This document shows positions 30,716 through 33,380 of a DNA stretch of 49,239 nucleotides, in pieces; the stretch's first letter is position 1, and each line of letters begins with the position of its first letter. The notes below the pieces were generated by a model that saw only the letters and a program-made list of their open reading frames with translations, was not told the DNA's origin and did no database searches. The position numbers and the translations under genes are program-made. The stretch is from Luminiphilus sp. Lineage in GTDB: Bacteria; Pseudomonadota; Gammaproteobacteria; Pseudomonadales; Halieaceae. The stretch spans positions 1-49,239 of the forward strand of contig JADHQG010000006.1 in the NCBI GenBank assembly GCA_016778045.1, given 5' to 3'.

Positions 30716-31561
30716 TCAGCTTAATGCTCTCTCGCCTGATACCACGGTCTGTTGAATCAGCGTATTGATGGTCATCGGGCCAACGCCACCCGGTACCGGC
30801 GTGATCGCGCTGGCACGCTCGGCGAGGGGCCCCAGCTCGATATCTCCGACTCCGCCGGGGTGGTATCCCGCGTCGACCACAACGGCGCCATCTTTAATCC
30901 AGTCTGCGCGGATAAATTCGGGACGGCCCACTGCGCCTACCACCAAGTCGGCCTGACGCACATGACTCTCGAGATCACGCGTTCGGGAGTGGCAGATAGT
31001 GACCGTCGCGTTGGCTTCGAGCATCATCATGGCCATCGGCTTGCCGAGAATCGGACTTCTGCCAATCACCACGGCGTGTAATCCCTCCAAATTGATCTCA
31101 TAGTGTGCGAGCAGGCGCATGATGCCTTGAGGCGTCGCACACCCATAGGCTGGTTCGCCCATCGCCATGCGACCAAAGCCCAAGCAGGTCACGCCGTCAA
31201 CATCCTTCTCGAGCGCAATCATGTCGAAACAGGCCCGCTCGTCGATCTGCGAAGGTACGGGATGCTGTAGCAGAATGCCGTGTACGTCCGGGTTCTGGTT
31301 AAGCTGCTCGATTTCTCTGAGGAGGTCGTTGGTACGGGTAGAGGCGGGCAGTTCGATCGCCATAGACTCCATGCCAACTCGGCGGCATGCGTTACCCTTC
31401 ATTTTTACGTAGGTCGCCGACGCGGGATCTTCACCCACCAGTATGGTTGCCAGAACCGGCGTCCGCCCGTTAGATTTTTCTTTTAGTGCCTCGACCCGGT
31501 TACTCAGTTGTTCTTCTGTGAGTTGGGCAACGTGTTTGCCGTCCAGAATGACTGCCGTCAT
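30716..31561 (-). CDS. folD: methylenetetrahydrofolate dehydrogenase / cyclohydrolase
   Basis: Bifunctional enzyme that interconverts 5,10-methylene-THF and 10-formyl-THF with NADP. It has 281 residues with catalytic Lys in [14 protein letters not shown] near 51-64, the motif [18 protein letters not shown], the Rossmann signature [11 protein letters not shown] and [11 protein letters not shown] strong ribosome binding site (AAGGGGGA) lies about 7 nt before the start. It stands alone on the minus strand and supplies formyl-THF for purine and formyl-Met-tRNA synthesis. Confidence 0.96.
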
Positions 31562-31633
31562 GTGAAATCCCCCTTAAAAACGGGCGCGATTCTGGCAAAG
31601 ATCCGGCAATGTGGGAAGGCGTTTTGTTGCGCA

Positions 31634-31662
31634 TTGCCGACAATTCGCAATGTCGGTACACT
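31634..31662 (+). promoter_or_regulatory. tRNA operon promoter with GC-rich discriminator
   Basis: TTGCCG (31634-31639), a 17-bp spacer and TACACT (31657-31662), followed at once by a GC-only run (GCGCGCCGCGCG). Such discriminators are typical of promoters under stringent (ppGpp) control. The spacer also holds an inverted repeat CCGACA/TGTCGG (31637-31642 and 31651-31656). Confidence 0.6.
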
Positions 31663-31694
31663 GCGCGCCGCGCGGGGGCTGAACCCTCCGTCAT

Positions 31695-31771
31695 CGGGGT
31701 GTAGCGCAGTCTGGTAGCGCGCCTGCTTTGGGAGCAGGATGTCGGGGGTTCGAATCCCTCCACCCCGACCA
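31695..31771 (+). tRNA. tRNA-Pro (UGG)
   Basis: A 77-nt cloverleaf with a 7-bp acceptor CGGGGTG/CACCCCG, anticodon stem CCTGC/GCAGG around loop TTTGGGA with anticodon TGG, the T loop GTTCGAAT, discriminator A and encoded CCA (31769-31771). First tRNA of a two-gene unit; the UGG anticodon can read all or most proline codons. Confidence 0.97.
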
Positions 31772-31849
31772 ACTCCTTCCGGTTAGGCCACAGGGGAGGG
31801 GTTAAGCCTTCGGGTCAGCGCGGCAGGCTCCCTGCTAGCGCTTCTTGAT

Positions 31850-31926
31850 GGTGGCTGTAGCTCACCAGGTAGAGCACCGGATTGTGGCTCCGGAGGTAGC
31901 GGGTTCGAGACCCGTCAGCCACCCCA
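31850..31926 (+). tRNA. tRNA-His (GUG)
   Basis: A 77-nt cloverleaf that includes the extra G(-1) at 31850 facing C73, the identity mark of tRNA-His. Acceptor GTGGCTG/CAGCCAC, anticodon arm CCGGA/TCCGG around loop TTGTGGC with anticodon GTG, T loop GTTCGAGA, and encoded CCA (31924-31926). It follows tRNA-Pro by 78 bp, probably on one precursor. No clear terminator follows. Confidence 0.97.
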
Positions 31927-32190
31927 ATCAAATTTTTGTATCGTGAGCCGGATGGACTGGGCGGTCGTTGCGTGTTGGCGACGCCACGAAAGGTATCGAC
32001 GGGGTCAAGTGTGTCGGCGGCTGCGAGCCCGCAACGCCGACGCATTGCGAGCGGATTATCCTGGAGTAGCGCTCGGTCTCTGGGTTCACGTCTCGCCATC
32101 CATGGCGGAGATTCTTCCTTGACGAGCTCATTATCTGGAAACGTATTATGGATTGACTTGCCTGATACACCGCTGGTTGGTCAGATGTGT
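31927..32190. other. intergenic stretch without recognised genes
   Basis: No credible coding frame or further tRNA. The only structure noted is a perfect 7-bp inverted repeat GTCGGCG/CGCCGAC (32013-32019 and 32035-32041) that encloses a smaller GGC/GCC hairpin. A loose TTGACG with TATTAT at 19 bp (32119-32149) is a weak promoter-like match. Confidence 0.4.
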
Positions 32191-32223
32191 CAAAAAAAAG
32201 AGCGCCTGCTGACAGCAGGCGCT
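32191..32223 (-). terminator. strong intrinsic terminator (second of a tandem pair)
   Basis: A perfect 10-bp stem AGCGCCTGCT/AGCAGGCGCT (32201-32210 and 32214-32223) with a 3-nt loop. On the minus strand it is followed by C and eight T (32200-32192). On the plus strand the A-run precedes the hairpin, so it acts only for minus-strand transcripts. Confidence 0.85.
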
Positions 32224-32246
32224 AAGGAAAGAAACGTGTAGAGGAG

Positions 32247-32272
32247 AAAAAAGAAGGGGCAATCCATGCCCC
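32247..32272 (-). terminator. intrinsic terminator of the small RNA
   Basis: Stem GGGGC/GCCCC with a 7-nt loop (32256-32272) followed on the minus strand by TTCTTTTTT (32255-32247). The loop holds a GGA motif, so the hairpin may both terminate and bind CsrA. Confidence 0.8.
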
Positions 32273-32344
32273 AGATAGGTTTGTCCCGGGTCTGGGTTTT
32301 ACGGCCTTCCGTGGCCACCCGAGATAGCCCTGTCGTCCTGACTT
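32247..32344 (-). ncRNA. candidate CsrA/RsmA-sequestering small RNA (RsmY/RsmZ/CsrB type)
   Basis: Predicted transcript of about 98 nt from a sigma70-like promoter to an intrinsic terminator, with no coding potential. On the minus strand it has four GGA motifs. TCAGGACGA lies near the 5' end between GTC/GAC arms. CACGGAAG has its ACGGAA exactly in the loop of a GGCC/GGCC stem (32303-32316), supported by an outer GGGT/ACCC pairing. CGGGACA is in a linker. CATGGATT has its ATGGATT in the loop of the terminator stem GGGGC/GCCCC (32256-32272). The established CsrA/RsmE site is CANGGANG with GGA in a hairpin loop, so two sites match closely. Such RNAs bind CsrA/RsmA dimers and relieve translational repression. 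It could instead be an unrelated sRNA; no csrA gene is in the window. Confidence 0.6.
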
Positions 32345-32350
32345 GGCACT

Positions 32351-32379
32351 ATGATGTTGCAAAATGAAATAAATTGCAA
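32351..32379 (-). promoter_or_regulatory. promoter of the small RNA
   Basis: Minus-strand TTGCAA (32379-32374), a 17-bp spacer and CATCAT (32356-32351; 4 of 6 to consensus). The predicted start is near 32344, placing the first GGA motif within 10 nt of the 5' end. Confidence 0.55.
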
Positions 32380-32390
32380 GCGAATTGCAA
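32357..32390. repeat. three TTGCAA copies around the sRNA promoter
   Basis: Self-complementary TTGCAA occurs at 32357-32362, 32374-32379 and 32385-32390. The middle copy is the proposed -35. Start-to-start spacing is 17 and 11 bp, so the last two lie about one helical turn apart. They may be a regulator site. Confidence 0.4.
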
Positions 32391-32434
32391 CAGGCATTCG
32401 AAATGAGGGTGGAATCGAAACTTAATGCAGCAAT

Positions 32435-32448
32435 TACAACAAGTTGTA
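32435..32448. promoter_or_regulatory. palindrome upstream of the small RNA
   Basis: TACAACAAGTTGTA has 6-bp perfect arms and is centred about 98 bp upstream of the predicted sRNA start. This is a plausible activator site. It does not match the known GacA box (TGTAAG-N6-CTTACA). Confidence 0.35.
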
Positions 32449-32567
32449 GATATTTCTTTGGAGCTAATTTCGGCTTCAATAGCTCATTAAGGCTTTGGAT
32501 TGGTGCTATTGACGCAAAATGCCACCTCTAAATGTCGCGCAACGCGAAAAATCATGCTGGTGCGGCT

Positions 32568-33380
32568 TCAGCCGGCAAAATTAGAAGGCAGATACTGGCA
32601 TAGTAGCTCGGTAACGAATTCAGGCCTTGCCCATTGATGCCCCGCGTCAGTAAATGCGTCCAAGTGACTTTGGCTTGGGAAGGAGTAATAGCGACCCGCA
32701 TCTACGGGCGCCCGAGCCTTGACTTCCTCACCTGCCTCAAGCAAGTCGACGACATGGGCCAACGCCGCACAGCCTGATCGGTACAGTCCAATGGTATTAG
32801 CCAGATAACACGCCTGCGGGTCTCTATGCTGACTTTGGATGCTGATAATCCTGCCGGTGTCGATCGTCGCATCGTCTATCCAGTGCAGAGTAGTAGCGAG
32901 CAACTCGTCACCTGCCAGCATGGCTCTAAAAGTGGCCATTACCCCGCGATACTGAGGCAACCTGCCAGAGTGCAGATTGAGCACGCCCTGGGTCGGTATC
33001 GACAACGCGTTGGATCCCAAAATGCAGCCATAGCGAATTGAGATCACCAAATCGGGCTCAGTAGCCGCTAGTGCCTCCAATCCTCGCTTGTTATTGGGTT
33101 CATTCAAGCTGTCCATCGGTGCGGTCAGATAGCGGTTCAGACCCTGAAAGGTGAGGAGTTCGCCATGCATTGACTGTGCATCGATGAGCGGAAACAGGAG
33201 CGTTATGGGGAGTGTTTGCTCATAAAAGGAGATGCCCGCCGAACCCGGTGCCACAGGCTTGCTGCCCACTCTGTCGGAGCAGAAAAGGCTCAGTTGGTGG
33301 TTCGCCGATAGCCTCGGAAGCAGCAAGTTCAGGGCGTAGTTGCTCGCCAGATCTCGATTCGTGAGTAGCGTAATACGCAC
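32568..33380 (-). CDS. formyltransferase-domain protein (Fmt/PurN superfamily)
   Basis: A 270-residue protein with the catalytic core of 10-formyl-THF-dependent formyltransferases: ISIRYGCIL, then NLHSGRLPQYRG (Asn and His of the N-x-H motif) and the distal Asp in DDATIDTGRII. It lacks the C-terminal OB domain of Fmt and is not PurN by its N-terminus. Its substrate is therefore unknown; sugar-amine or amino-acid formylation, as in other stand-alone members, is possible. It has a GTG start at 33380 with only a distant GAGG. It stands alone, with its own promoter, and has no sugar-modification neighbours. Confidence 0.8.
   Translation of the reverse strand: MRITLLTNRDLASNYALNLLLPRLSANHQLSLFCSDRVGSKPVAPGSAGISFYEQTLPITLLFPLIDAQSMHGELLTFQGLNRYLTAPMDSLNEPNNKRGLEALAATEPDLVISIRYGCILGSNALSIPTQGVLNLHSGRLPQYRGVMATFRAMLAGDELLATTLHWIDDATIDTGRIISIQSQHRDPQACYLANTIGLYRSGCAALAHVVDLLEAGEEVKARAPVDAGRYYSFPSQSHLDAFTDAGHQWARPEFVTELLCQYLPSNFAG

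Follow-up and report, generated by a model that had tools for sequence, protein, structure and literature searches.

Does the interval between a tRNA-His gene and a formyltransferase-domain gene in Luminiphilus sp. encode a small RNA that sequesters CsrA? The protein CsrA regulates gene expression globally at the post-transcriptional level, and homology searches have difficulty in detecting the sponge RNAs that antagonize it. The window analyzed here, a stretch of 49,239 nucleotides from one contig of a Luminiphilus assembly (Halieaceae), contains an intergenic candidate of this kind on its minus strand, flanked by tRNA-His (31851-31926, plus strand) and the formyltransferase-domain gene, with a folD-like ORF and tRNA-Pro further out on one side and an exonuclease III-like gene (PF03372) on the other. 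An initial annotation had interpreted the element as a candidate CsrA sponge of the RsmY/RsmZ/CsrB type. The best reading of the evidence presented below, and one that we consider likely to be correct, is that of a lineage-restricted RNA that would sequester CsrA. Its 5' start is placed at approximately 32344-32346, based on promoter spacing and on where conservation begins, and its 3' end would be the T run. The features of the locus are listed in Table 1.

Table 1. Position of the candidate small RNA, its structural elements and surrounding features in the window.
Feature	Position	Strand	Basis or remark
Candidate small RNA	32247..32346	minus	Covariance models R1/R2; 23/57 genus genomes, own genome included
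Hairpin 1, GUC[AGGAC]GAC, CsrB-repeat-like CAGGACG	32332..32342	minus	Loop GGA in 23/23; stem 100% paired in 20/20
Hairpin 2 with outer stem UCUCGGG/CCCGGGA and inner GGCC[ACGGAA]GGCC	32284..32324	minus	Fold and alignment
Hairpin 2 inner stem-loop, ANGGAN hexaloop, predicted high-affinity CsrA site	32303..32316	minus	23/23
Hairpin 3, terminator stem GGGGC[AUGGAUU]GCCCC followed by U run	32256..32272	minus	GGA in 17/23
-35-like hexamer TTGCAA	32374..32379	minus	TTGCAA/TTGACA/TTTACA-like at 16-17 bp spacing in 23 homologues; window under generic threshold
17-bp spacer ending in TTTTGCAA	32357..32373	minus	Recurring TTGCA/TGCRA letters in upstream alignments
-10-like hexamer CATCAT	32351..32356	minus	Comparison of upstream regions
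Second, stronger terminator-like hairpin, 10 pairs, T8	32201..32223	minus	Mechanical scan; downstream of the RNA
Formyltransferase-domain gene	32568..33380	minus	PF00551; locus context only

The minimum free energy fold of the 98 nt sequence consists of three hairpins with a GGA motif in each loop: GUC[AGGAC]GAC, GGCC[ACGGAA]GGCC as part of a longer stem, and GGGGCA[UGGAU]UGCCCC. The initial annotation had placed two GGA motifs in hairpin loops and a third near the 5' end; the third is present as described and is itself also part of a small hairpin, hairpin 1. To count such structures, we defined a GGA hairpin as a loop of 5-7 nt that starts with A and holds GGA, on a stem of at least three pairs of which at least two are G-C, a definition set post hoc with the RNA already seen. 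By this post hoc definition, no other place in the window, on either strand, packs three GGA hairpins into 85 nt, and none of 5000 dinucleotide shuffles of the RNA contained three GGA hairpins (16 contained two). The folding energy is unremarkable, with z-scores of -1.61 for the 98 nt and -0.49 for 131 nt, and on these values thermodynamic stability was rejected as a line of evidence. The case for the RNA rests on conservation, not on stability.

Homologues were collected in successive rounds. BLASTN found six relatives among 57 other genomes, all from the same genus. A covariance model built from the window and these six sequences (R1) matched 20 of the 57 genus genomes, and a second model built from 20 sequences (R2), run on the 37 R1-negative genomes, added three more (L033-L035, E ≤ 1.5e-4), giving homologues in 23/57 genomes with the window's genome included. 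The remaining R2 matches in R1-negative genomes (E of 0.129 and up, with some match up to E 10 in 24 of the 37) were taken as chance; at the four rejected places that we viewed (L036, L037, L038 and L057), agreement with the model lay mainly in the terminator hairpin.

The loop GGA is present in hairpin 1 of 23/23 homologues, in hairpin 2 of 23/23 (always as an ANGGAN hexaloop) and in the terminator loop of 17/23, the 23/23 figures being partly built in because models containing these loops supplied 16 of the 23 homologues. In the sequences obtained outside the model searches, namely the six BLASTN relatives and the window, GGA occupies the loops of hairpins 1 and 2 in 7/7. The initial annotation had named a lack of conserved GGA hairpins among relatives as one of the outcomes that would refute its proposal, and that outcome was not seen in either set; the stems covary. 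Its two loop-borne motifs fared differently: the one in hairpin 2 is found in every homologue, and the one in the terminator loop, present in the window, is not universal. By eye, the six homologues lacking GGA in the terminator loop fall into two groups of similar sequence, one of L021-L023 and L025, the other of L026 and L028. At least three GGA hairpins by the fixed definition occur in 17/23 homologues; in L029 there is an additional fourth one, GGCU[AGGAA]AGCC.

Around these motifs the helices change. Hairpin 1 reads CAGGANG in 19 of the 23 homologues, UAGGANG in three and CAAGGAG in one, the last being L035, in which GUC[AAGGA]GAC keeps the GGA with its register shifted by one position in the loop. 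The predominant form is close to the CsrB repeat CAGGA(U/A/C)G (PMC7652899). Three homologues have GCU/GGC in place of GUC/GAC as the hairpin 1 stem (UA to CG) with AGGA unchanged. The inner stem of hairpin 2 varies between GGCC/GGCC, GGUC/GACC and AGUC/GACU while the loop core remains constant; in that loop, A and GGA are fixed but the N and X positions of ANGGAN are not, a pattern that follows the recognition rule described in the literature (PMC4005645). The weakest helix is the outer stem of hairpin 2, with 78.6% of cells paired, partly because L029-L032 use other outer pairs. In a MAFFT alignment of 20 sequences, 90.8% of cells are paired under this structure. Its covariation score on these sequences is 0.201. 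Slid controls do not exceed 0.121, shuffles average 0.114, and 0/500 shuffles reached 0.201; the structure tested is the consensus of the first seven sequences, which biases the comparison in its favor over the slid versions. A weaker measure, the number of pairs changed on both sides (seven), was reached by 10/500 shuffles and by the +3 slide.

The pattern of conservation also bears on a different reading, in which the element is a base-pairing, Hfq-dependent small RNA with its 5' AAGUCAGGAYGAC and loop 2 as seeds, the GGA being part of the seed. Conservation is particularly high in the 5' 15 nt of the RNA, as is often the case for seeds, and the base-pairing RNAs McaS and GadY of E. coli have also been proposed as CsrA antagonists (PMC7652899). 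A seed, however, would hardly tolerate the variation seen here, with A(N)GGA fixed while the adjoining loop letters vary and the 5' stem switches from GUC/GAC to GCU/GGC. We regard base pairing as an unlikely reading and CsrA sequestration as the preferred one.

The homologues are found at two unrelated loci. Sixteen (L013-L028) are located in the interval from folD and the tRNA genes to xthA, as judged by neighboring tRNAs or gene signatures, with gene families confirmed for L023 and L026. The other seven (L029-L035) adjoin an Lrp/AsnC-type regulator gene (signature in 7/7, Pfam confirmed for L031, whose two other neighbor genes have no Pfam family match). The RNA is therefore a unit kept apart from its neighbors.

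A promoter and an intrinsic terminator had been reported in the initial annotation, of which the terminator was recovered by a mechanical scan (GGGGCATGGATTGCCCC-TTCTTTTTT, 32272-32256). The scan alone proves little, because two terminator-like sites in 31500-33200 compare with a mean of 1.3 in shuffles. The second site, downstream of the RNA, is possibly a backup terminator and was not seen in the six aligned relatives. In the homologues L030-L035, beside the Lrp/AsnC-type gene, the third hairpin has no U run directly after it, and termination or processing may therefore differ there. The promoter turned out to be weak: a generic scan of 31500-33200 requiring at least 9/12 letters found none, and the best promoter-like site in the window, TTGCAA-17 bp-CATCAT, has 8/12. 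The upstream regions of the 23 homologues share a sigma-70-like layout in which 7 to 11 of 12 letters agree, the spacer measures 16-17 bp and the site stops 3-5 nt short of the RNA; each is the best of 40 placements per homologue, such that the lowest scores could be chance. The promoter hexamers also co-align in a plain alignment of most of these upstream regions. Separately, a GCATTTTGCGTCAA-like element is located at 32513-32527 on the minus strand of the window, approximately 170 bp upstream of the RNA; it also occurs in L003 and L004 and in degenerate form in L005 and L006.

These data on loci and signals weigh on the reading of the element as something with no role of its own, either a general terminator or a structure that belongs to the upstream gene as its 3'-UTR or through read-through. 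A terminator is present, the formyltransferase gene does lie upstream in the same direction, and GGA-hairpin elements are found behind stop codons in other bacteria. Against this, approximately 220 bp and the promoter-like element separate the RNA from the formyltransferase gene, L029-L035 carry the unit beside the Lrp/AsnC-type gene, and in L026 the RNA adjoins xthA with no formyltransferase ORF seen between. We consider this reading less likely still than base pairing.

Outside the genus, the model found no further homologues in the genomes searched: 23/140 genomes matched across the family, all Luminiphilus, and 2/293 in an even draw across the order, both Luminiphilus, from searches that scored 29 and 14 first-look candidates per genome, respectively, and may miss weak distant homologues. 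A pattern scan of the genome_contigs collection yielded 35 stretches, of which 16 score 52-104 bits with R2 and 19 score at most 30.7 bits or have no match; the 16 high-scoring stretches are labelled Luminiphilus, Halieaceae, HTCC2080 or, once, gammaproteobacterium. Within the genus, 34/57 genomes have no detectable copy, 26 of these having csrA. We searched 24 of the 34 RNA-less genomes and obtained a full tRNA-Pro-tRNA-His match in 15. In those 15 loci, the first 420 nt were inspected and the tRNA is followed by unrelated-looking sequence, and a triple of GGA hairpins (stems of at least three pairs) is found in 0/15, compared to 17/23 of the homologous loci.

It is very improbable that the element is conserved only through close kinship, with GGA loops by chance, as might be suspected from the first six relatives having come by BLASTN from within one genus: the flanks diverge strongly around fixed loops (alignment of the window and six relatives), hairpins 1 and 2 covary, a second locus exists, and the GGA triple is missing from the 15 RNA-less tRNA-Pro/tRNA-His loci. 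A small protein-coding gene (ORF 32222-32479, minus strand, 85 aa) is hardly credible, for its reading frame is open but the homologues are 92 to 110 nt long, in steps that are not multiples of three, and conservation tracks base pairs and loops.

A sponge of the type we favor needs a CsrA to act on. The genome of the window encodes one (G000:C81:5593-5751), which passes the equivalogs NF002469 and TIGR00202. Its residues 1-54 align with CsrA/RsmA proteins of solved structure, and the RNA-contact residues L4 and R44 are present. CsrA (PF02599) was found in 39/57 genus genomes and in 16/17 of the high-quality ones. A csrA match is present in 13/23 RNA-bearing genomes vs 26/34 RNA-less genomes. 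The two therefore do not co-occur positively, which counts against the sponge reading. Of the ten RNA-bearing genomes that lack a csrA match, nine are 65-82% complete, and the tenth (G070) is 95% complete. The csrA leaders themselves carry ACAAGGA(U/A/C)G close to the start codon in all five loci read among the 39 genomes with a csrA match. In the leader of the window's genome (L130:960-996), ACAAGGAUGU stands just 5' of the start codon and is similar to the CsrA site consensus from SELEX, RUACARGGAUGU (PMC7652899). This resemblance suggests, without proving, that Luminiphilus CsrA recognizes the canonical site and autoregulates.

We propose that a free-standing small RNA of approximately 95-100 nt, with its own promoter and intrinsic terminator, would act as a CsrA decoy. 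According to structural work on RsmE, the high-affinity site is an ANGGAX hexaloop that sits immediately on a stem, and affinity falls 10- to 1000-fold with changes such as dropping the N (PMC4005645). By this rule, hairpin 2 is predicted to be a strong CsrA site and hairpin 1 an intermediate one; the predicted strength of hairpin 3 is uncertain because its loop in the window has 7 nt, which formation of the A-U pair would reduce to 5 nt. In the proposed mode of action, the ANGGAN loop of hairpin 2 would receive a CsrA dimer, which would also reach across either to the GGA loop of hairpin 1 or to that of the terminator hairpin. In the window, the GGA motifs start 28 and 45 nt apart, with 25 nt between the GGAs of hairpins 1 and 2 and 42 nt between those of hairpin 2 and the terminator loop (L014), distances inside the 10-63 nt range over which CsrA bridges sites (PMC7652899). 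Production of the RNA would then take CsrA off mRNA leaders and release their translation, the simplest model being a decoy that binds one dimer per RNA.

We compared the RNA to catalogued families. At Rfam gathering thresholds, the window contains no family besides tRNA, and cmscan with Rfam 15 listed no Csr/Rsm-type family in 31930-32620 at E ≤ 10. At low thresholds, the region has seven sub-gathering matches, mostly on terminator hairpins, the best being suhB at 23.1 bits vs a threshold of 41; the homologous loci at E ≤ 5 (20/23, with L033-L035 left out) gave tRNAs and two weak matches, suhB and leuA-Halobacteria. RsmY (RF00195) and RsmZ/PrrB (RF00166) each exceeded the gathering cut-off in 0/57 genus genomes and had no match at the candidate's locus. 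Sub-threshold RF00195 matches in 6/57 genomes (best 27 bits vs 57) were dismissed, as two unrelated control genomes also match below the cut-off. RsmX, CsrB, CsrC and TwoAYGGAY had no cmscan match in 31930-32620 (E ≤ 10) or in 20/23 homologous loci (E ≤ 5). The covariance-model check against RsmY, RsmX/RsmZ, CsrB and CsrC suggested in the initial annotation thus returned no match. The interpretation given there is supported by the conserved GGA loops, the covariation and the CsrA in the genome; membership in these families is not supported. The element has at least two loop GGA motifs conserved in relatives, and the same organism has a CsrA with RNA-contact residues. For a free-standing transcription unit the signs are mixed (a terminator in the window, promoter-like sequence in 23 homologues with the window below the generic threshold, and no direct U run in L030-L035). 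The element is most likely a new RNA, without detected homology to catalogued families, in the CsrA-sequestering class.

In Pseudomonas, RsmX, RsmY and RsmZ are approximately 100-120 nt in size. The Luminiphilus RNA resembles them as a small RNA with several GGA hairpin loops, including ANGGAN hexaloops, and predicted sequestration of CsrA/RsmA. It differs in having only two to three GGA loops, where P. fluorescens RsmX has six GGA motifs (PMC4005645), in falling below the RsmY and RsmZ model cut-offs, and, unlike these Gac-driven RNAs, in belonging to a genus without GacA over cut-off and without a GacA-box-like palindrome upstream. The likeness to enterobacterial CsrB and CsrC lies in the hairpin 1 loop, which carries the CsrB repeat CAGGA(U/A/C)G; unlike CsrB, which contains 22 GGA sequences (PMC7652899), the Luminiphilus RNA is approximately 100 nt long with three GGA loops, and it has no Rfam match. 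Nearest in spirit is TwoAYGGAY (RF01731), a CsrA-binding RNA proposed from motif matching (PMC4333381), which likewise has two hairpins with AYGGA-type loops. The differences are that the TwoAYGGAY model does not match, that the hairpin 1 loop in Luminiphilus is AGGAN, and that the terminator hairpin would provide a third site. A machine-learning hunt for CsrA-sponge RNAs has already been made (PMC5568370). Our literature search for HTCC2080 with CsrA and for Halieaceae with small RNAs and CsrA found nothing. All of Rfam misses the Luminiphilus RNA, and the present analysis provides a sponge candidate and a covariance model for Luminiphilus, including HTCC2080, of which isolates exist.

A GacA ortholog (NF007018) exceeds the cut-off in 0/57 Luminiphilus genomes (best 83.5 of 280 bits) and in 12/21 representatives of the order's other families. 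Control of the RNA would therefore differ from that of the Gac-RsmY/Z system, and since CsrA persists in the genus, the signal feeding it there would have to differ as well. A search of up to 250 nt upstream of the 23 homologues found no GacA-box-like palindrome. TTGCA-type letters occur in or near the promoter spacer in many of the 23 upstream regions, and these TTGCA/TGCRA letters are a possible regulator site or promoter feature. The palindrome T(C/T)GCA..TGC(A/G)A is present in 9/23 homologue upstream regions and was found neither in the window nor at csrA. More tentatively, and with somewhat more doubt than confidence, we suggest that Luminiphilus may combine CsrA and a CsrA sponge without a recognizable GacA, in the form of a minimal two- or three-site sponge whose promoter has TTGCA/TGCRA elements and whose terminator hairpin is an optional CsrA site, the input to CsrA having been rewired away from Gac in this marine lineage.

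GGA hairpins alone are no proof of a trans-acting sponge, because the same two loop types lie behind the genes of other bacteria. By inspection, an element of two hairpins, whose loops read AGGAY and ANGGAU, stands right after a TGA stop codon in Lysobacterales and other MAGs (L069:1760-1830, L070, L072, L077, L081, L083, L085, L086, L088, L089, L091 and L095). It follows a Pyr_redox_dim protein in L069 and L091 and, by eye, an L33-like end in L088, and it is repeated in some loci. At Rfam gathering thresholds, the element had no match in 17 loci, with only a cobalamin riboswitch in L097 listed. These elements are possibly dispersed 3'-UTR repeats that would bind CsrA. A pair of AGGAN and ANGGAN hairpins was also observed at L063:102-140, L075:1778-1816, L084:906-943 and L097:5760-5797 (minus strand), scoring 14.7-26.3 bits with R2, in hosts comprising Modicisalibacter, a Natronospirales MAG, a gammaproteobacterial MAG and a Firmicutes MAG.
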